Assembly (NCBI GenBank): GCA_016177765.1
Contig: JACOUP010000008.1
Coordinates: 1 to 64,000 of the forward strand
From: Deltaproteobacteria bacterium
Lineage (GTDB): Bacteria; UBA10199; JACPAL01; JACOUP01
DNA: 64,000 bases
Reading direction: 5' to 3'
In this document: positions 41,444 to 50,659 of the stretch, piece by piece
How positions within the stretch are numbered: position 1 is the first letter of the stretch
Layout: each line of letters opens with the position of its first letter
Notes under the pieces: generated by a model
The model's input: only the letters and a program-made list of their open reading frames with translations
What the model was told of the DNA's origin: nothing
Databases searched by the model: none
Program-made: the position numbers and the translations under genes

Positions 41444-42412
41444 TTAAGTTTCCGACAACACCTTTTTAAATTCGGCCGTCAATGCCGGAACCACCTTGAA
41501 AAGATCATCCACAATTCCGTAATCGGCCTTCGAAAAGAGAGGCGCCTCCGGGTCCTTGTTGATCGCCACAATCACCTTCGCCGTTCTCATCCCGGCAAGG
41601 TGCTGAATCGCCCCCGAAATACCGCAGGCGATGTAGAGCTTTGGGTTGACCGTCTTGCCGGTCTGTCCCACCTGCATGTCATGCGTTGCATAGCCGGAAT
41701 CGACGGCGGCCCGTGAAGCCCCAACGGTCGCCCCAATCGTATCGGCCAGTTCATGAAGAATCTTGAAAGTCTCGGCACTCCCCATCGCCCGTCCTCCAGA
41801 GACAATAATCTCCGCCTCGGTCAGATCCGGCTTTTCGCTTTTCCCCTTGCGGATCTCTTTAATTGTAGCACGAAGGGGACCCGGATCCACCTGTTTCTTG
41901 ATCAGCTCCGCCTGGGAGCCAACCACCGTCTGTTTTGTGGCAAACGAATTGGGACGGATGGTAGCCATCTGGGGGGTTGAGGAAAAGGTCACATCGACAA
42001 AGGCCTTGCCGGCATAAACGGGACGGGTCGCCACCAATTGGCCACCATCGATACGAAGTTCCGTGCAATCGGTGGCGAGTCCCACTTTCAACCGTGCCGC
42101 CAAGCGAGGGAAGAGATCGAGTCCCAATGGAGAAGCAGACCCCAGGACAATTCCAGATTTTCTCTCTTGAATCAATTCTACAAGAACCTTCGTGAACCCC
42201 TCGGTGTTGTACCTTTCAAAATTGGTATTGGAGAGGAGAAAAACTTTTTTGACTCCATAGGCACCCAACTCTTTATCTATTTTTGTCAGGTTGCTGCCGA
42301 TGAGGACAACCTCAACCTCTCCCCCAAGGGACGAGGCCTTTGTTGCCAGCTCCAGCGCCGTCTTCTTAAGGACGCCACCTTGATGTTCCGCCACGATGAG
42401 AATGTTCGTCAT
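41444..42412 (-). CDS. etfA: electron transfer flavoprotein alpha subunit
   Basis: A 322-aa FAD-carrying ETF subunit. The C-terminal FAD domain reads GQTGKTVNPKLYIACGISGA and VAINKDPEAPLFSKADYGIV, and the N-terminal half is a nucleotide-fold domain (MTNILIVAEHQGGVLKKTAL). Its ATG overlaps the TGA of etfB. It accepts electrons from acyl-CoA dehydrogenase and should reduce quinone through the FadF-like protein. Confidence 0.95.
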   Translation of the reverse strand: MTNILIVAEHQGGVLKKTALELATKASSLGGEVEVVLIGSNLTKIDKELGAYGVKKVFLLSNTNFERYNTEGFTKVLVELIQERKSGIVLGSASPLGLDLFPRLAARLKVGLATDCTELRIDGGQLVATRPVYAGKAFVDVTFSSTPQMATIRPNSFATKQTVVGSQAELIKKQVDPGPLRATIKEIRKGKSEKPDLTEAEIIVSGGRAMGSAETFKILHELADTIGATVGASRAAVDSGYATHDMQVGQTGKTVNPKLYIACGISGAIQHLAGMRTAKVIVAINKDPEAPLFSKADYGIVDDLFKVVPALTAEFKKVLSET

Positions 42413-43188
42413 AGTACCTTCGCTTCTTCACGGAGTAGACGGACCAACTCCTTGGCCTTTGCCTCGGGCGATTCTCCTTGAATCACCTTGCCCGCCTTTC
42501 GTTCCGGCGGGAGACGCCATTTGGTATTTTGTGTCTTCGGTTTCACGTCGCCCAGGAGATCAGCCGCCTTAAGGACGGTGAGTGGTTTTGTCTTCGCCTT
42601 CATGATCCCGGGGAGTGAGGCGTAACGGGGGGTATTTAGCCCTTTATCAGCACTCAGGATGCAGGGAAAATCGACTTCGTAAATCTCCTGGGCCCCTCCC
42701 CCCACAGGCCGATGGACAACAATTCCCTTGTTGTCTGCCCTCAATTCCAGTTTTTCAATCACATTGACCTGCGCCAAACCCAAAAATTCGGCAACCATCG
42801 TCATCACCTGGGCCAAGTCATCATCAATCCCCTTCTTGCCGCAAAGGATCAGGTCCGATTTTTCAGATTCAAGGGCCTTGGCAAGAACCATCGCCACCGT
42901 AAAACTGTCGCTCGCTATCCCGGTATCATCAATGTGAATCCCGCGGTCGGCCCCCATCGCCAGGGCTGTTCGAATCGCCTCCACAACACGGGCCGGCCCG
43001 AGGGAGAAGACAACGACTTCACTGCCAGCTACCTTTTCTTTGGTTTTGATCCCCTCCTCAACGGCATATTCGTCGTAAGGGTTGACAATATACTTGATCC
43101 CATCGGTCTCAATACCACTGCCATCCGCCTTGATTCTGATTTTAGTTTCAGTATCCGGAACCTGCTTGAGTAAAATAGCTATTTTCAT
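42409..43188 (-). CDS. etfB: electron transfer flavoprotein beta subunit
   Basis: A 259-aa ETF subunit that usually binds AMP. The N terminus MKIAILLKQVPDTETKIRI is canonical. The GKKGIDDDLAQV segment and the recognition-loop region SLPGIMKAKTKPL are typical. I choose the ATG at 43188 with an AGGAAG ribosome site; seven codons upstream in the open frame are not conserved. A good promoter lies at 43201-43229. It is the first gene of the etfB-etfA-acyl-CoA dehydrogenase unit. Confidence 0.95.
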   Translation of the reverse strand: MKIAILLKQVPDTETKIRIKADGSGIETDGIKYIVNPYDEYAVEEGIKTKEKVAGSEVVVFSLGPARVVEAIRTALAMGADRGIHIDDTGIASDSFTVAMVLAKALESEKSDLILCGKKGIDDDLAQVMTMVAEFLGLAQVNVIEKLELRADNKGIVVHRPVGGGAQEIYEVDFPCILSADKGLNTPRYASLPGIMKAKTKPLTVLKAADLLGDVKPKTQNTKWRLPPERKAGKVIQGESPEAKAKELVRLLREEAKVL

Positions 43189-43241: not shown

Positions 43242-44657
43242 CTAAACCAAACTATTCCCATCAATAGGGGTCGGGATCTTTTTCCCCAACAGCTTGAGGA
43301 TGGTTGGAAAAAGATCGACCGTCCTCACCTCTTTCTTCTGGATCGGGAAATTAAGGATCATCGGGGTCAGCATATGTTCGGCGATCAGAGAACCGTGGGA
43401 TGATTTATGTTCCGGGATCTCATGCCGTTTGCGAAGGTCGCACCCCTTGCTGGCGCTCAAGACAAGGTCTCCACTCCGTTCTGACCGAAATATCTGGAGG
43501 AGTTGGACCAAGGCATCCGGGTAGTCGGTCGCAAATGTCCGGGTCAGCGCCTCATCCTCCATCATCTTCAAAGGAAGTGCCGGGTAGCCAAAAGGGTCGC
43601 TCTCCTTAGCGTCTACCTGATAACCAATCCCCCCGTCTTCCCTCCAGAGCCGTGCCTTCCCCCTTCGGCTGGTGACGACAACTTCTCCCTTTTGATTGCG
43701 ACAGGCGATGATATCAATCTCGGGCCGGTTCAGGAGTTTTTGAAAGAGCCCTCCCTTGTATGAAAGAAGCTCTTCTTCAAATATCGGTTCCCCCCAGCCC
43801 CGGCGTCCCTTGAGGTACAAGTGGGCCATCCCGTTGCCTGACACCATATTGGCCACCGAAAATCGCCGCTTCAAAATAAGGGGGTAGTAAAAAACCTTGA
43901 ACCCCTCCCCTTCCATGAATTGATTCAACGGGAGATGGGTATGCGTCGATGAGAGGCCATGATCGCTCACGATCCCGACGATCGTTTCATCCTGCCAGCC
44001 CCTTCGAGTGAGCACCCGAAAAACCTCTCCAACAATCTGGTCAATCCCTTCATACGCCTTGAGAGTCAGCGGGTGGAAAGGATCGCCGATGTGTGAAAAC
44101 TCGTCGATCGCCGGAAAGACCGCAAAGGCAAACTGCAGGTCCGGGTGCGTCTTAAGGGCGGAAATCAATTTTCGCCGGGAGGCCTTGTCAATCACCGACC
44201 AGCGATCGGTCAGGTGGGCATAATAGGCATAAAATATCCGTGAAAATTTTGTCTTGTTCCACCGAAAAGGGGACCCCTTGTTGATCGCATTATAGATATT
44301 CACGGAATTGGGGATGATCTGAAAAAGAGACCTGATCTGGGGGTTAATATCCCGATTCATGAGGATCGATTCAATCCCGACATAACTCCTGAAGCTACGG
44401 AACGGCAGTCCCCCCTGGGCATATTTTTTACGGTCAAACCAGCGGATCCCCGGAAGATTACAGGTTCCGGCATAACAGCCGGTCAGAAACGGAAGATAGG
44501 CAGGGCCTGTCGTTGAGGGGAATGTAGCGACCGCCGAACGGAACACCCCATTCTTTAGAAGGTGCTTCTCAATCGCGGGAAGGCGTCCCTCTTGGAGGAG
44601 CTGGCGAAAAACATCCGGCCGCGCCCCGTCGGCTAGTAAAAGAATGCACCGTTTCAT
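43242..44657 (-). CDS. alkaline phosphatase-fold phosphodiesterase / nucleotide pyrophosphatase family
   Basis: A 471-aa metal-dependent hydrolase. Motifs of the type I phosphodiesterase family are LLLADGARPDVF with the first metal Asp, ATFPSTTGPAYLPFLTG with the likely nucleophile Thr, FAVFPAIDEFSHIGDPF, GIVSDHGLSSTHTH with Asp-His, and HKSSHGSLIAEHM with the final His. No signal peptide or membrane anchor is visible. The substrate is unknown. It ends 5 nt short of nothing recognisable downstream and begins 5 nt after the mlaC-like gene, so it may belong to that operon. Confidence 0.82.
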   Translation of the reverse strand: MKRCILLLADGARPDVFRQLLQEGRLPAIEKHLLKNGVFRSAVATFPSTTGPAYLPFLTGCYAGTCNLPGIRWFDRKKYAQGGLPFRSFRSYVGIESILMNRDINPQIRSLFQIIPNSVNIYNAINKGSPFRWNKTKFSRIFYAYYAHLTDRWSVIDKASRRKLISALKTHPDLQFAFAVFPAIDEFSHIGDPFHPLTLKAYEGIDQIVGEVFRVLTRRGWQDETIVGIVSDHGLSSTHTHLPLNQFMEGEGFKVFYYPLILKRRFSVANMVSGNGMAHLYLKGRRGWGEPIFEEELLSYKGGLFQKLLNRPEIDIIACRNQKGEVVVTSRRGKARLWREDGGIGYQVDAKESDPFGYPALPLKMMEDEALTRTFATDYPDALVQLLQIFRSERSGDLVLSASKGCDLRKRHEIPEHKSSHGSLIAEHMLTPMILNFPIQKKEVRTVDLFPTILKLLGKKIPTPIDGNSLV

Positions 44658-44662
44658 AATAA

Positions 44663-45331
44663 TTACTTTTTTTCCAGATCGTTCAGTTTGGATTGCATAC
44701 GCCGGATCAGATCCGGGTAGCCGTCTTTCTTGATGATCTTGTCGAACTGGAACTTATAGTTATCCAAAAGGCTCGCCCCTTCGACGATCACGTCAAAAAT
44801 CTTCCAACCGGAATCAACCTTCTTCAGTTTGTAATCAAGACTGACCTGTATAGTCTCGGAGGGAATATTGACCCGGCTCTCCGTCTGGGCCTTCGTCTTT
44901 TCAGAATTGAGAAACTTTTCACCAAGATAAGTGACATAATAGGAGGCCTTGGACGACCCTCCGGATTTACTGCGACTCTGTTCCTTGGAAAAAACCGCCT
45001 TTTTTTCCAGAAGACGGGTCATCAGATCCACAAAGGCCTCTTTGTCTCTTTCAGAAAGCGTCTGCCAGTGTTGTGCCAGGGCGAGGCGGCAGAGTTCGCG
45101 AATGTCAAACGTCCCATGAATAACCTTCTTCTTGAGTTCTTCATTTTGTCTGATCTCTTCTGGCGTGGAGGCATCCACCTTATAGCTGTCCAGAAGGGTA
45201 TCTAAGTCCTGGATGGCCCGGGTCGGGGATCCTTCCGAGGCCTGTTTTTTACCCGCCGTTTCGGCAAAGGGTGTGCCACCGAATCCAAAAGAAGCCACCA
45301 GCAAAATGACTGCGATCGTTCGTTGAAACAT
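44663..45331 (-). CDS. mlaC: MlaC-like periplasmic phospholipid-binding protein
   Basis: A 222-aa exported protein of the MlaC/Ttg2D family that ferries phospholipid between the outer membrane and the MCE transporter. The signal peptide is MFQRTIAVILLVASFGFG. Family segments are THGTFDIRELCRLALAQHW-like (IHGTFDIRELCRLALAQHW), a middle domain with IQVSLDYKLKKVDSGWKIFD, and VEGASLLDNYKFQFDKIIKK. The ATG at 45331 has AAAGGAGAA upstream, 13 nt behind the TolC-like gene. Confidence 0.88.
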   Translation of the reverse strand: MFQRTIAVILLVASFGFGGTPFAETAGKKQASEGSPTRAIQDLDTLLDSYKVDASTPEEIRQNEELKKKVIHGTFDIRELCRLALAQHWQTLSERDKEAFVDLMTRLLEKKAVFSKEQSRSKSGGSSKASYYVTYLGEKFLNSEKTKAQTESRVNIPSETIQVSLDYKLKKVDSGWKIFDVIVEGASLLDNYKFQFDKIIKKDGYPDLIRRMQSKLNDLEKK

Positions 45332-45344
45332 CAGATTCTCCTTT

Positions 45345-46754
45345 TTATTCTCCGGCAACTCTTCCACTTTTTTGATCCAGCTTGGCGACAGCAACGTTGT
45401 AATTAAAAACCGCCTCAAAATATTGTCCACGGGTCGTCAGGAATGACTGCACGGCATCCACCAGGTCCTTTGATTCGGCAAGACCGATATCAAAACTGCT
45501 CTGGGTCAGAAAAAGCAGTCTTCGGGACAGTTTTCCGGACTCCTCAGACCTTTCCAGATCGGCCTTGGCGCTCTGCAGGTCCATGTAGGCCTCTTTCAGC
45601 TCCAGCGTGATCCCCTTTGTGGCCAATTCTTTCTGAATCTCGGTCTTTTTCACCTCGCTTCGCGCCTGGCGGATTTTTGAGTTCTGCGTGTGGAAATCGA
45701 ACTGCCCCTTCAACTGCAGGCCGAACCCAGCCCGGGTAAAGTTGAACGGATTGTTAAAATCGTCCGTGGCAATAACCCCGGTCACGTAAGGGGCACGCCC
45801 GATCTCAAAAAAGGCCCCCACCCCAAGGTTGGGAGTCCACTTTCGCCTCTCCAGCCGGTAGAGCTTCTCTCTGGCCCCAAGGCCGATTTCCAGAAGTTTA
45901 ACCTCGGGACGGTGGGTCATCGCCTCATCCCGGTAGGTGTCAAATTTTTCCAGATCCACAGAAACCGGTCTCAAACGGGTATCCTTAATATCGAAGGGGA
46001 CCGACCGGTCAAGCCCCATCTGGACCTTCAGCGCCTCTCTGGCCAGAATCTTCTTTTTTTCGGATTCTTCAACCTTTTTTTCTAATTCGAGAAGAAAAAG
46101 CTTTAATTTGAGAAGTTCCGAGGGGTCGCTTCCCTCTTCCTCCTGTTCCCTCTTCTCCACCTCTTTTTGAACACGCTCGAGAGCGGCATCCAGGAGCCGA
46201 TCCAGTTCCCTGGCGAGCAAAATCCCATTGTAAAGCTGTTTGACCTTGAAAAGGAGATCCGATTTTTTCTGCTCCTTCTTGAACAACTCGGCCTCAATCC
46301 CTGATCGCGCCAGCTCCTGACCCAGTTTGATCTTTCCGAAGGTGGAAAGGGGTGTCCCGATCCCCAGCTTGAACCGGTTAAAAACGGTGATATCCCCGGT
46401 GAAGAAGCTCTTGGCGGCATCGTCAACCCGTTGCGGTGTCGGGGCAAGGTTATATTCATACTCAATGATCGGCGACCCGATAATCTTTGCCTCCTGTAAT
46501 TTCTCTTCAGCAATTTCTTTGTCATAATCACTCGCCTTGAGCTCCTCATTGTGCTGGGCGGCACGGGCCAGACACTCATCCAGATTGAGCCTTAATATCT
46601 GATCCTCAGGCACTTTATCAAAACCGTTAAACAGTTTTTCAACCCGGATACGGGCTGGCGGCGGGGGCTCCTTTGTTATATCGGAATCCTGACCACGAAC
46701 CGGCAGGCCCATAGCGACCAGAAAAAGGATGATAATAATCTTAAGCCTGCTCAC
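45345..46754 (-). CDS. TolC-family outer-membrane protein within the Mla operon
   Basis: A 469-aa outer-membrane channel protein. The signal peptide is MSRLKIIIILFLVAMGLPVRG. OEP-type helical repeats follow (LNLDECLARAAQHNEELKAS and ATKGITLELKEAYMDLQSAK), with long Glu/Lys coiled-coil helices near residues 190-240. The start is GTG at 46754, overlapping the mlaD stop (GTGA). A TolC homologue between mlaD and mlaC is not part of the E. coli system and suggests a trans-envelope lipid or efflux route in which the channel replaces or complements MlaA. Confidence 0.88.
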   Translation of the reverse strand: MSRLKIIIILFLVAMGLPVRGQDSDITKEPPPPARIRVEKLFNGFDKVPEDQILRLNLDECLARAAQHNEELKASDYDKEIAEEKLQEAKIIGSPIIEYEYNLAPTPQRVDDAAKSFFTGDITVFNRFKLGIGTPLSTFGKIKLGQELARSGIEAELFKKEQKKSDLLFKVKQLYNGILLARELDRLLDAALERVQKEVEKREQEEEGSDPSELLKLKLFLLELEKKVEESEKKKILAREALKVQMGLDRSVPFDIKDTRLRPVSVDLEKFDTYRDEAMTHRPEVKLLEIGLGAREKLYRLERRKWTPNLGVGAFFEIGRAPYVTGVIATDDFNNPFNFTRAGFGLQLKGQFDFHTQNSKIRQARSEVKKTEIQKELATKGITLELKEAYMDLQSAKADLERSEESGKLSRRLLFLTQSSFDIGLAESKDLVDAVQSFLTTRGQYFEAVFNYNVAVAKLDQKSGRVAGE

Positions 46755-48004
46755 CGAAACCTCGCGGCGCCAAAGATCGACTTAATATCCTCGTCAATAA
46801 TCTGAAAACCGGCCCCGACAAACCAGTCAGGGTCACGCTGTTTGGAGATAAAATCATCAACCCCGGACAGGAGGAAAAAATTGCGTGTCAGATTGGCCCG
46901 TCCGTACGCCTTCAAGTGGGGGCGTTGTTGATCCTTCGTCCTGAAGTCAAAGGCAGAAAAGGTGAGCCCAAACGGTCCTACTTTGTAATCGGCCCCCACC
47001 CCTCCTGTGGATTCAATGATCCCACCGCGCAGGGTAAAGTCATAAAAACTCTTGGCGAGCTGGGCTGAGATCAAAAGTTTGTTCTTCTCCACAACCTGCT
47101 GATCGCTCACAACCTGTGTCGTCACACCGCCGGTCGTCACATCCGTGGTGGTCACACGGCGCCTCGGCGAGGGGTCCGGATCGACAACAAGTTCCAGGAG
47201 AAAGGCCTTGTCCGGTCTCGGCTTCAAACCAAGACCAACATAATTTTTCACACTTTTGGAATCTCCCAGATACTCAAGGTGATAACCGATCTCCGCCTGA
47301 AGGCGGTTCACCCCCCCCAGCGTCTCCGATAACCCTTTGGTCGCTTCCTTCAGGTTCTCAGCGGTTTCTTCATCGTTGACGAGACGGCCGATCGTCCCCT
47401 TTCCCTCGTCAATCTTCCTGGAAATGCTGGAGACATAACCCAAGCTGTTGTTCAGCTTGTCCGAGAGGATAGCAAAGTTGTTCATGATCTGATCCCAGTT
47501 CCCCCCCTCTACAAAATGCCTCTTCATCGAACCGGTCACTTCCTTGATATCCTCAGCGATAGCATTTAACTTGGAGGTCAGCTCAGAGAGGTCCACGTAG
47601 GGATTGACAGCGGTAATCTGTTCCCCTGCGGCCAGATATCCCTTTCCCGGTGATCCGGGCATCAGATCGATGTAGGTTTCGCCCAAAAACCCCTTGGTCC
47701 GGACCTGGGCGGTAACATCTTTTGTCAACTGGACTTCCTTGTTGATGCGGAGCAGGACGTTGGCCTTCCGATTGTCCACCAACTCCAAGCCGGCTACATA
47801 GCCGACCTGGACACCGGCAATCTGCACCGGCGTTTTTTTGGTCAGACCGGTTGCTGAATTAAGGACCAGCGAAACCGTATAGGTCCCCTGTGATGAGAGT
47901 TTCCGGTCGCTCACCTGGATGGTAGCATAGGCCAGAATCAGGAGACCGATCACGGCAAAAAGACCGATTTTTAAATTCTGCTGTCTCTCTCTGTCACGCA
48001 TCAT
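46751..48004 (-). CDS. mlaD: MlaD-like MCE-domain protein with long C-terminal beta-rich domain
   Basis: About 417 aa. One N-terminal membrane anchor (NLKIGLFAVIGLLILAYATI) is followed by an MCE domain (VSLVLNSATGLTKKTPVQIA, then VGYVAGLELV) that forms the periplasmic lipid ring. A helical stretch follows. Unlike E. coli MlaD (183 aa), ~160 further residues look like an antiparallel beta-barrel (SFYDFTLRGGIIESTGGVG, FGLTFSAFDFRTK, LKAYGRANLTRNFFLLSGVD, WFVGAGFQIID). That part could sit in the outer membrane, making one protein span the envelope. The fold is inferred from residue alternation only. The start is at 48004 or 48001. Confidence 0.85.
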   Translation of the reverse strand: MMRDRERQQNLKIGLFAVIGLLILAYATIQVSDRKLSSQGTYTVSLVLNSATGLTKKTPVQIAGVQVGYVAGLELVDNRKANVLLRINKEVQLTKDVTAQVRTKGFLGETYIDLMPGSPGKGYLAAGEQITAVNPYVDLSELTSKLNAIAEDIKEVTGSMKRHFVEGGNWDQIMNNFAILSDKLNNSLGYVSSISRKIDEGKGTIGRLVNDEETAENLKEATKGLSETLGGVNRLQAEIGYHLEYLGDSKSVKNYVGLGLKPRPDKAFLLELVVDPDPSPRRRVTTTDVTTGGVTTQVVSDQQVVEKNKLLISAQLAKSFYDFTLRGGIIESTGGVGADYKVGPFGLTFSAFDFRTKDQQRPHLKAYGRANLTRNFFLLSGVDDFISKQRDPDWFVGAGFQIIDEDIKSIFGAARFR

Positions 48005-48010
48005 CAAACT

Positions 48011-48736
48011 TTAGTCCTTTCCCTCTAAAAATTGGCGAACGACCGGCAGATCCGATTTTTTTATCTCTTCCGGACTGCCTTGGGCCACAATCCGCCCCTC
48101 ATGAAGCAGAGCCACTTTATCGGCAATAAAGAATGTGGATTCAATATCATGGCTGATGACCACGGAGGTTATCTTCAAACGCCCCGGCATCTCCACAATA
48201 AGTCGGTTGATGGCACTGGTCATGATCGGATCCAGGCCTGTGGTTGGCTCATCGTACAAAATAATTTTTGGTTCTAACGCAATGGCCCTGGCAAGTCCAA
48301 CCCTTTTTCGCATCCCGCCCGAAAGTTCAGAGGGCCTCCTGTCCTCTATCCCAGAAAGCCCAACCGCCTCCAATTTTTTCTTCACAACGGTCTCGATCTT
48401 GTCCGGAGAGAGCCCCGAATGTTCCCTGAGGGGAAAAGCGACATTTTCAAAAACAGTCAGGGAGTCAAAGAGGGCGGCGCTCTGAAAGAGCATCCCGAAC
48501 CGGCGGCGAAACAACGCCAGCTCCTTATCAGATAACCGGTTGAGAGAAACCCCATCAACCGTCACATCACCGGCATCCGGCCGTAACAAGCCGATAACAT
48601 GCTTCAAGAGGACACTCTTCCCACAACCGCTCCGCCCCAAAATGACGGTGATTTTCTCTCGAGGGATCTCCAGATTGAGATCGTTCAGAACTTTATTCGA
48701 ACCAAAACTTTTGGAAAGGTGTTTCAGTTGGATCAT
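48011..48736 (-). CDS. mlaF: MlaF-like ABC transporter ATPase
   Basis: A 241-aa cytoplasmic ATPase of the lipid transporter. It shows Walker A GRSGCGKS, signature LSGGMRKRVGLARA, Walker B IILYDEPTTGLD and switch His in SVVISHDIES. The SGGMRKRV form of the signature is characteristic of MCE-associated ATPases. The ATG at 48736 is 2 nt after the mlaE stop codon. Confidence 0.95.
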   Translation of the reverse strand: MIQLKHLSKSFGSNKVLNDLNLEIPREKITVILGRSGCGKSVLLKHVIGLLRPDAGDVTVDGVSLNRLSDKELALFRRRFGMLFQSAALFDSLTVFENVAFPLREHSGLSPDKIETVVKKKLEAVGLSGIEDRRPSELSGGMRKRVGLARAIALEPKIILYDEPTTGLDPIMTSAINRLIVEMPGRLKITSVVISHDIESTFFIADKVALLHEGRIVAQGSPEEIKKSDLPVVRQFLEGKD

Positions 48737-48738
48737 TG

Positions 48739-49527
48739 TTAAAACTCCGGGAAAAATTCTAAAATCCACGCCGTGAGAAAATAATCCATCACCAGGATAA
48801 CCACCGAAGAGATCACCACCGCCTGGGTTGTTGCCCTCCCCACCCCTTGCGCCCCCCCTGAAGTGCGGTACCCCCGGTGGCAGGAGAGGAGCGTTAGAAG
48901 GAGGCCAAAAACAGAGGCCTTCATCATCCCGCCGACAATATCATCCATATCCACATAGTAATAAAGTTTGTGAAAGAAGGGGGCTTCCGGAAGACCCAGG
49001 AGGGAGACCGCCACAAAATAGGAACCGATGATGCCGATAAAGATAAAAAAGCCGTAGAGGAGCGGCACCATCACAAAACCGGCCACCACCCGGGGGACAA
49101 CAAGGTAATGGACCGGGTTGACCGCCATCGATTCCAGGGCATCGACCTGTTCCGTAACCCGCATCGAACCGATCTCCGCCGCCATCGCCGAACCGGCCCG
49201 CGCCGTGACCATGAGGGCGGTAAAAACGGGGCCGATCTCACGGCTCAGGGCGAGCCCGACCGTCGAACCGATGAGGGATTCCGCATTAAACAGGCGGAAG
49301 GCATAGGCAGTCTGCAGGGCAAAAACCATCCCGGTGAAAAGACCGGTCAGGGCAATCACCGGGAAAGACTGGACCCCTAAAAACTCCATCTGTTGTCTCA
49401 GGAGGGACCAGCGGAAAGGGGAGACAAAAAGCCACCGGAAAAAAGAGAGGGCAAAACTAAAAAACCGGCCCACCTCCTGGACGGTCCTCCGAACCAACTC
49501 CCCGATTGTTTCAATCAATTGTGTCAT
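48739..49527 (-). CDS. mlaE: MlaE-like ABC transporter permease
   Basis: A 262-aa inner-membrane permease with five to six hydrophobic segments. The family block REIGPVFTALMVTARAGSAM, continuing AAEIGSMRVTEQVDAL, and the segment TGLFTGMVFALQTAYAF are diagnostic. The ATG at 49527 has AGGAACGGG upstream and lies 13 nt behind the alr stop; the longer frame from 49554 would overlap alr. It is the first Mla gene of the operon mlaE-F-D-tolC-mlaC. Confidence 0.95.
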   Translation of the reverse strand: MTQLIETIGELVRRTVQEVGRFFSFALSFFRWLFVSPFRWSLLRQQMEFLGVQSFPVIALTGLFTGMVFALQTAYAFRLFNAESLIGSTVGLALSREIGPVFTALMVTARAGSAMAAEIGSMRVTEQVDALESMAVNPVHYLVVPRVVAGFVMVPLLYGFFIFIGIIGSYFVAVSLLGLPEAPFFHKLYYYVDMDDIVGGMMKASVFGLLLTLLSCHRGYRTSGGAQGVGRATTQAVVISSVVILVMDYFLTAWILEFFPEF

Positions 49528-49540
49528 ACGATACCCGTTC

Positions 49541-50659
49541 CTAGTTCTCAACATAACTCCGTCTCAACCGCGGCGACAACCGGCAAAAAATCTCGTAAGA
49601 GATGGTCTCCGACCATTGGGCCAGATCATCCGCCGAAATCTCCTCACTCCCCTGCCTCCCGATCACGACCACCTCATCCCCAACCTCGGCTGAGGGGCAG
49701 TCCGTCAGATCCACCATGGAGAGATCCATGCAAACGGTCCCGACAACCGGCACCTTTTGACCTCTGACAAGGACAAAGGCCTTGTTGGAAACGATCCGTG
49801 GATAACCATCCGCATACCCCAGCGGCAAAACCCCGATCCGGCTCTCCCTCTTTGTCCGGAAGGTCCGGTTATAACTGACCGGTGTCCCGGGGGCCAGTTT
49901 TTTTAGCGAAATAATTCTTGTCTTGAGCGATAAAACCGGTTTCAAGGCGATCTTTTCCTTCAAGCGGGGGATCGGCGCCGCCCCGTACAAAACCAGCCCT
50001 AACCGGACAAGGTTGCAACCTCTACCCTCCCCTTCGATCGCCTCGATGGAATTGGCCAAATGCCTCCACTGCGGTTTGACGCCGCACTTTTCCAGGTCTG
50101 AAAGAATTTTGCTGAAATTTTCCCTTTGAAAGGCGGTAAACTCAGGGTCGCCCGCCTCTGCCAGATGGCTCAGCAACCCTTCAGACCGAAGGGAATCAAT
50201 TTTCGAAAACTCCTGCCAAAAACCACCCCACTGATCCATCGGCACTCCCAGCCGGCTCATCCCGGTGTCGACTTTGAGATGAATCGCAAGGGATTGTCCC
50301 TTTTTTTTGGCCGCCGCACCCAGGAGTTTGGCGACCCGAATATTTTCCACGACAGGGGTCAGTCGATGTTCGAAAAAGGGTTCTGTACGGCCATCCAGCA
50401 AACCCAGAAGAATGACAATCGGTTTGGCAATACCCACTTCTCTCAATTCAATCCCTTCATCGACCGTCCCGACGCCAAAAAAGTCAGCCCCAGCTTCGTC
50501 CAGCACTGGCGCCACTTGCGTCGTACCATGCCCATAGGCATTTGATTTCACCACCGCCATAATCTTAAGGGAGGGACCAATCTTGTGACGAAGTTCTAAA
50601 AAATTGTGGCGGAGCGCCGAAAGGTTGATCTCGATAAATGTAGGGCTTTCCCTCAACAT
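49541..50659 (-). CDS. alr: alanine racemase
   Basis: A 372-aa PLP enzyme making D-alanine for peptidoglycan. The PLP Lys lies in VVKSNAYGHG (about residue 38), with HLKVDTGMSRLG, the catalytic Tyr in SYNRTF (about residue 265) and MDLSMVDLT. No Shine-Dalgarno sequence precedes the ATG. A candidate promoter (TTGACT, 16 nt, TTATCG) puts the start of transcription within a few bases of it. It is immediately upstream of the mla genes and probably in one operon with them. Confidence 0.94.
   Translation of the reverse strand: MLRESPTFIEINLSALRHNFLELRHKIGPSLKIMAVVKSNAYGHGTTQVAPVLDEAGADFFGVGTVDEGIELREVGIAKPIVILLGLLDGRTEPFFEHRLTPVVENIRVAKLLGAAAKKKGQSLAIHLKVDTGMSRLGVPMDQWGGFWQEFSKIDSLRSEGLLSHLAEAGDPEFTAFQRENFSKILSDLEKCGVKPQWRHLANSIEAIEGEGRGCNLVRLGLVLYGAAPIPRLKEKIALKPVLSLKTRIISLKKLAPGTPVSYNRTFRTKRESRIGVLPLGYADGYPRIVSNKAFVLVRGQKVPVVGTVCMDLSMVDLTDCPSAEVGDEVVVIGRQGSEEISADDLAQWSETISYEIFCRLSPRLRRSYVEN

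Follow-up and report, generated by a model that had tools for sequence, protein, structure and literature searches.

A TolC-family gene beside mlaC in bacteria without MlaA, joined to a beta-domain MlaD in a deltaproteobacterial gene cluster

The window analysed here is a stretch of 64,000 nucleotides from a Deltaproteobacteria bacterium of GTDB lineage UBA10199 (assembly GCA_016177765.1, contig JACOUP010000008.1, positions 1 to 64,000 of the forward strand). It carries a cluster of lipid-transport genes of the Mla type in which mlaE, mlaF and mlaD are followed by a gene of the TolC family and then by mlaC. The initial annotation of this DNA dwelt on MlaD; its observation is sound once corrected and its main idea has been published before; the TolC encoded next to it is of greater interest. 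The association of TolC with MlaC is what looks new. The reading that we favour, and to which we give about an even chance, is a hybrid Mla system: a specialised protein of the TolC family would take the place of MlaA as the outer-membrane partner of MlaC, beside a barrel-tipped MlaD.

The contrast that carries this reading lies outside the organism's own class (here, the source genome and 45 same-class relatives, G000-G045). Fifty-one genomes outside the class had a MlaC match (four of them under the Pfam cut-off); ten were left out, some for weak matches, and 41 provided 43 MlaC loci. When neighbours are called with a purpose-built profile, genomes that lack MlaA have a TolC-family gene on the strand of mlaC and no more than 1.1 kb from it at 17 of 22 loci, and genomes that have MlaA at 1 of 21 (Fisher p 1.1e-6 by locus and 1.3e-7 by genome; this test, like the tree and tip comparisons below, takes related genomes as independent). 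Counted by eye over family labels, the pair is present in 14 of 17 MlaA-lacking and 1 of 18 MlaA-bearing families. The MlaA-bearing genomes have mlaA near mlaC in 13 of their 21 loci. Among the 17 MlaA-lacking pairs, tolC is upstream of mlaC in 16 and downstream in one (L170), and a single gene intervenes in L176, L183 and L207. (DUF3047 proteins are encoded between tolC and mlaC at L183:6117-7064 and L207:5322-6044.) Pfam scans of one or two neighbours were made at seven of the eight loci that either have no recognised TolC, Mla or pde gene beside mlaC or consist of MlaC alone, and found no OEP domain in the scanned genes.

In some operons tolC occupies the slot that is held by mlaA elsewhere. 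The order mlaE-mlaF-mlaD-tolC-mlaC, with a short MlaD, is present in L206, L209 and L225 (L206 and L209 are one family, and the genome of L225 also has MlaA elsewhere), and the order mlaE-mlaF-mlaD-mlaA-mlaC in L180, L181, L211 and L223 (L211 and L223 are one family). Linkage of mlaEFD to tolC is thus recurrent, since it is present in the first three of these loci and published for Negativicutes (Grasekamp et al., Nat Commun 2023, PMC10665443). The E-F-D-tolC-C order is itself a recurrent assembly; it is found in the window together with a barrel-type MlaD, in a class whose other members keep the parts apart.

In the window the genes from alr through pde lie on the minus strand and are presumably co-transcribed. 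The features are the following.

49541..50659, minus strand: alr, alanine racemase (open reading frame, a name that we take from the sequence itself; the same neighbour is found in most relatives), opening the alr-mlaE-mlaF-mlaD cassette
48739..49554, minus strand: mlaE, lipid ATP-binding cassette (ABC) transporter permease (Pfam MlaE, 275 bits; NCBIfam TIGR00056, above cut-off)
48011..48769, minus strand: mlaF, ATPase, likely ATG start at 48736 (Pfam ABC_tran; the top NCBIfam model is MlaF, under its cut-off)
46751..48004, minus strand: mlaD, 417 amino acids, with membrane anchor, MCE domain, helical stretch and predicted C-terminal ten-strand beta domain
45345..46754, minus strand: tolC-family gene, 469 amino acids, of the MlaC-paired clade (Pfam OEP, E 2.9e-36; tree; tip sequences)
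44663..45331, minus strand: mlaC, 222 amino acids, ATG at 45331, with an AAGGAG-like ribosome site and a signal-peptide-like start (Pfam MlaC, E 1.9e-25)
43242..44657, minus strand: pde, type I phosphodiesterase family (Pfam PF01663), third gene of tolC-mlaC-pde
41444..43188, minus strand: etfB and etfA, which we take from their sequence to be electron-transfer flavoprotein genes, beyond pde in many class loci (gene order)

The open frame at 46751-48004 is real, and the TolC-family gene after mlaD, with mlaC behind it and mlaE and mlaF upstream, is as the initial annotation had it. The stop of mlaD and the start of tolC share 4 bases, and 13 bases separate tolC from the start of mlaC (picked by sequence inspection). 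Pfam finds the OEP domain of the TolC protein as two stretches or repeats, and MlaC scores 90 bits against the PF05494 cut-off of 26. The source genome (G000; 1.92 Mb, 19 contigs, 96.5% complete) has a single MCE protein and a single MlaC, and a search of it for MlaA gave no match.

In the class loci read, two conserved cassettes are kept apart, alr-mlaEFD and tolC-mlaC-pde (neighbours there being named only by likeness to window genes). Among 44 class MlaD loci (G034 and G028 have none for this count), the next recognised gene is purH, a label taken from its sequence, in 35 (in one of them 6.7 kb away) and tolC in 2; in the other 7, several of which lie at contig ends, none is recognised. The two with tolC are the window and a member of its family, G001 (L003). 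Among the 43 class loci whose MlaC is orthologous to the window's (L076 of G013 is left out, its MlaC reaching only 53 bits against the class profile), tolC is directly upstream in 41, the remaining two being cut by contig ends, and pde is downstream in 41. The window's operon is therefore a join of two cassettes that is confined to its own family, in which they would have come together as one run of overlapping or near-touching genes. Thus, the claim that tolC belongs to the mlaD operon holds for the window's family, and class loci put tolC with mlaC instead; likewise, the proposed survey of mlaE-F-D-tolC-mlaC operons finds them outside the class, in the three loci named above, with mlaD-tolC rare inside it. 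MlaC is retained in 44 of the 46 class genomes, the two misses being G024 (84% complete) and G043 (81% complete), and MlaA is matched in 0 of 46 by a search that detected the E. coli and Caulobacter controls. A pde-family gene also adjoins mlaC outside the class, in L183 and L184.

The TolCs that are paired with MlaC form, as judged from their sequences, a separate clade. In a tree of 51 OEP proteins all 28 paired members (10 of the 41 class pairs and all 18 outside pairs, one of these from the MlaA-bearing G270) are separated by a single branch (bootstrap 100, SH-aLRT 99) from the 23 unpaired proteins, which include E. coli TolC, CusC and two further OEPs of the source genome (20 of the 23 were drawn from the best Pfam OEP matches listed, so that the sample favours typical efflux ducts). 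The first periplasmic tip of the paired proteins has a DLLKLK-like motif and is more acidic (net acid 3.0 vs 0.04, p 8e-7), as is the second (1.8 vs 1.0, p 0.02), related rows not being independent in either comparison. The tips of E. coli TolC contact adaptor proteins; since those of the paired TolCs differ, a different partner is plausible. The MlaC tree has no clean split into TolC-paired and MlaA-paired proteins, and four TolC-paired MlaCs lie inside a mainly MlaA clade.

MlaD itself divides into four parts.

47915..47977, minus strand: N-terminal membrane anchor, about residues 10-30 (hydrophobic stretch by reading; in the family profile, the alignment with solved MlaD chains begins at position 1)
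47654..47884, minus strand: MCE domain, residues 41-117 (Pfam PF02470, MlaD, 68.1 bits, E 8e-19)
47300..47653, minus strand: mostly helical stretch, residues 118-235, with the motif KIDEGKGTIGRLVND (the profile matches solved mycobacterial Mce1 chains there)
46793..47299, minus strand: C-terminal beta domain, about residues 236-404, with ten predicted strands and a long Thr-rich hairpin between strands 3 and 4

The MCE domain named in the initial annotation is present; the barrel-like stretch that had been placed directly after it is separated from it by some 117 residues, mostly helical by homology. The intervening stretch has 117 residues in the window and 116 in L003; for most of the class the figure is 151-156, and four genomes from outside the class have 188-221. 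It measures 116-122 residues in the window, L003, L057 and L059, that is, in the window's family and two relatives of the same order, against the 151-156 of most class members, and its length thus looks as though it were kept constant.

The C-terminal beta domain is the most conserved part of MlaD among class members, above the MCE domain. In an alignment of 47 sequences the mean share of the commonest residue is 0.67 over residues 308-404 and 0.65 over residues 236-278, compared with 0.56 in the MCE domain and 0.45 over residues 119-200. Of 60 genomes searched, 54 gave relatives of MlaD; the viral contigs searched gave none. With a profile of the C-terminal domain, a match at E 1e-3 is obtained in 45 of 46 class genomes (the exception is G028, a genome 67% complete) and in 65 of the 244 other genomes; in 54 of the latter it is as strong as E 1e-10, and the remaining, weaker matches cover just a part of the domain. 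Four class genomes (G023, G007, G014 and G010; L132-L135) have a second mlaE-mlaF-mlaD set, whose MlaD of 249-256 residues has no C-terminal domain; the window's genome, unlike these, has one MCE protein only. A sequence search of solved structures matched the MCE and helical parts and left the C-terminal domain uncovered (among the 60 of 87 matches listed), with some designed-helix and apolipoprotein-type structures extending a few residues into it.

That this domain is an outer-membrane beta domain is highly probable. The barrel-like alternation of the initial annotation is within chance for the window sequence alone (1741 of 5000 shuffles are as high) and stands out in the mean of 87 relatives (34 of 5000), where hydropathy changes with a period of two residues. 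Mean-field couplings from these 87 sequences (effective number 82), with strand limits set by hand from the sequence and strands paired in antiparallel register, average 4.0 for the nine neighbour pairs and 1.7 for 35 non-neighbour pairs (Mann-Whitney p 1.1e-4). Their difference is 2.28, against 0.05 +/- 0.21 in 20 column shuffles, a control that breaks relatedness too. The best registers are centred on predicted turns, including that of the Thr-rich hairpin at G292-G293; neighbour pairs 4-5 and 7-8 score low (2.1 and 1.7). Because neighbour couplings are strong and the coupling of strand 1 to strand 10 is weak, a ten-strand antiparallel meander is well supported and its closure into a barrel suggested. 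That one chain runs from inner to outer membrane, as was claimed, is probable: homology, conservation and co-variation argue for the anchor and for a beta domain of outer-membrane type, and a closed barrel is suggested. The continuous lipid conduit that was also claimed goes beyond this evidence, and the predicted Veillonella barrel was judged too narrow for phospholipid (PMC10665443).

On the favoured, hybrid reading, MlaE, MlaF and an MlaD hexamer would form an ABC-type transporter in the inner membrane that works as usual. Past the MCE ring, MlaD would continue as a helical needle into a ten-strand beta domain inserted in or docked on the outer membrane, needle and beta domain together holding the complex to that membrane. 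A trimer of the TolC-family protein would serve MlaC as outer-membrane partner instead of MlaA and a porin, and MlaC would ferry lipid, in one direction or the other, between this specialised trimer and the MlaD ring or MlaE, the role that it has in E. coli between MlaA-porin and MlaD. To this last part, contact of MlaC with TolC in place of MlaA and lipid carriage between TolC and MlaD/MlaE, we give slightly less than an even chance.

The barrel reading of MlaD is not new, because both the architecture and the mlaEFD-tolC operon were published in 2023 for Veillonella parvula. MlaD of V. parvula has 419 residues, with an anchor, an MCE domain, about 150 helical residues and a ten-strand barrel; the isolated barrel localises in outer-membrane fractions, mlaEFD is directly followed by tolC and tamB, and such MlaD barrels were inferred in 103 sequences (PMC10665443). 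Set beside this published description, the window's MlaD is alike in length (417 residues), in domain order, in the tolC that follows mlaEFD and in the lack of MlaA. It is unlike it in having mlaC and pde after tolC, where V. parvula lacks MlaC and has tamB. The difference from E. coli Mla (MlaFEDB-MlaC-MlaA-OmpC/F) that the initial annotation pointed out is correct, and already published in that paper. The window shares with E. coli members of the MlaE, MlaF, MCE-domain MlaD and MlaC families; it differs in that its genome lacks a MlaA match, in an MlaD of 417 rather than 183 residues with an added beta domain, and in the TolC-family gene beside mlaC. The mycobacterial Mce1 transporter (PDB 8fed) likewise has an MCE domain followed by a long helical needle, and the profile matches both; Mce1 is a hetero-hexamer to whose tip each subunit is said to contribute one strand (PMC10665443), as against one beta domain per subunit here. 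Like the efflux ducts TolC, OprM and CmeC, to which it has weak sequence matches, the window's TolC belongs to the OEP family; unlike them, it sits in a clade that excludes E. coli TolC and CusC along with 21 further unpaired members, and its first periplasmic tip is acidic.

Pairing of TolC with MlaC was not described in the open-access titles and abstracts searched (subscription papers, preprints and the supplements of PMC10665443 lie outside that scope), and the parts covered of PMC5561183, PMC11784454, PMC7790496, PMC12436622, PMC13082787 and PMC10094684 make no mention of it.

Several observations weigh against the hybrid reading, and they are best taken with the alternatives that they favour. 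The mlaEFD and tolC-mlaC cassettes are normally unlinked in the class, and MlaC-TolC may therefore not serve MlaD; moreover, 5 of the 22 MlaC loci from genomes without MlaA have no nearby TolC, and no MlaC match was obtained in 48 of the 65 genomes outside the class that have the beta domain. A plain bridge of the Veillonella type, in which barrel-MlaD and MlaEF move lipid alone and tolC-mlaC is an unrelated unit that stands behind mlaD by happenstance, would account for the absence of MlaC from those 48 genomes and for the predominance of purH after class mlaD. We consider it unlikely, in view of the near-universal retention of MlaC in the class and of the recurrence of tolC behind mlaD in L206, L209, L225 and, as published (PMC10665443), in Negativicutes. 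Barrel-type MlaD is said to tend toward absence of MlaA and MlaC (PMC10665443). The tendency for MlaC is not reproduced here: outside the class a MlaC match is present in 17 of the 65 genomes with the beta domain, against 34 of the 179 without it (p 0.28), and the class keeps MlaC. MlaA is matched in 4 of 110 beta-domain genomes vs 23 of 180 others overall (p 0.011), and in 4 of 65 vs 23 of 179 outside the class (p 0.17).

Other evidence concerns the cargo. The neighbours of mlaC include MMPL transporter genes in L207 (where TolC is present) and in L219 (MlaA-bearing, without TolC), and the source genome encodes a squalene-hopene cyclase (C1:41717-42691); export of hopanoids or other lipids is therefore possible. 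In addition, a search of the 96.5% complete source genome for LptD gave no match, so that asymmetry based on lipopolysaccharide may not exist in this organism. TolC and MlaC might then be the outer-membrane and periplasmic parts of an RND- or MMPL-driven exporter of hopanoid-like lipid, with MlaC as a carrier of the type of HpnM, the hopanoid-associated MlaC relative. HpnM (TIGR03481) is indeed the best NCBIfam match of the window's MlaC, at 68.7 bits; this is far under the cut-off of 160.1 and not diagnostic, the MlaA-partnered MlaC of L180 also matches HpnM best, and the identification was not accepted. The cyclase lies on another contig than the window, and there is no pump-sized frame among the genes listed around the window's tolC-mlaC; an unlinked pump is possible in the class, where neighbours carry names from window genes alone. 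An exporter of this kind is, on balance, an improbable explanation. CDP-alcohol phosphatidyltransferase genes that adjoin mlaC in three lineages (L129:4812-5606, L176:6819-7517 and L177:2298-2999) point to phospholipids. A frame of 740 residues at L168:4196-6415 (G088) has its MlaC domain only at residues 593-728; for the first ~590 there is no Pfam match at E 0.001.

The remaining adverse points bear on the barrel. The coupling of strands 1 and 10, which closure would require, ranks 2 of 36 with all sequences, but in six subsamples of 75% its ranks are 3, 3, 13, 7, 18 and 7. At 3.7, the score of pair 5-10, whose strands are not neighbours, exceeds those of five of the nine neighbour pairs. 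AlphaFold models made from two sequences are of low confidence (predicted local distance difference test, pLDDT, 34.5 for the full length and 35.6 for residues 180-417); they draw a helix over predicted strand 1, also place helices in the stretch after the MCE domain, and are not used as evidence. These points, with the chance-level alternation of the single sequence, would suit a beta domain that is soluble or docked on the surface and contacts the outer membrane or peptidoglycan instead of forming a membrane barrel. Ten amphipathic strands in a simple meander, with registers in which one side seems to have mostly short turns and the opposite side longer loops, and the recovery of the isolated Veillonella barrel in outer-membrane fractions (PMC10665443) make such a domain quite improbable. 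Finally, the TolC, clear OEP family member though it is, can hardly be an ordinary efflux duct in this position by chance, a neighbourhood that we reject on its conserved pairing with mlaC in class and outside loci, its separate clade and its altered tips.

To the question of how phospholipids travel to or from the outer membrane in bacteria without MlaA, the published answer is a bridge-type MlaD that would render MlaC and MlaA unnecessary. Here MlaC is kept nearly throughout a bridge-bearing class, and the gene always next to it encodes a TolC from a branch of its own, in this class and in a good number of other lineages. Tentatively, this branch, of which the papers searched give no description as such, may be the outer-membrane half of an MlaC lipid shuttle in many MlaA-lacking lineages, MlaA having replaced TolC, or the reverse, in the same slot; the window's lineage would then combine such a shuttle with a barrel-MlaD bridge, two outer-membrane routes in one operon. 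The paired TolC is in any case a concrete candidate for the missing outer-membrane partner of MlaC, and a caution that annotation as TolC does not necessarily imply efflux.

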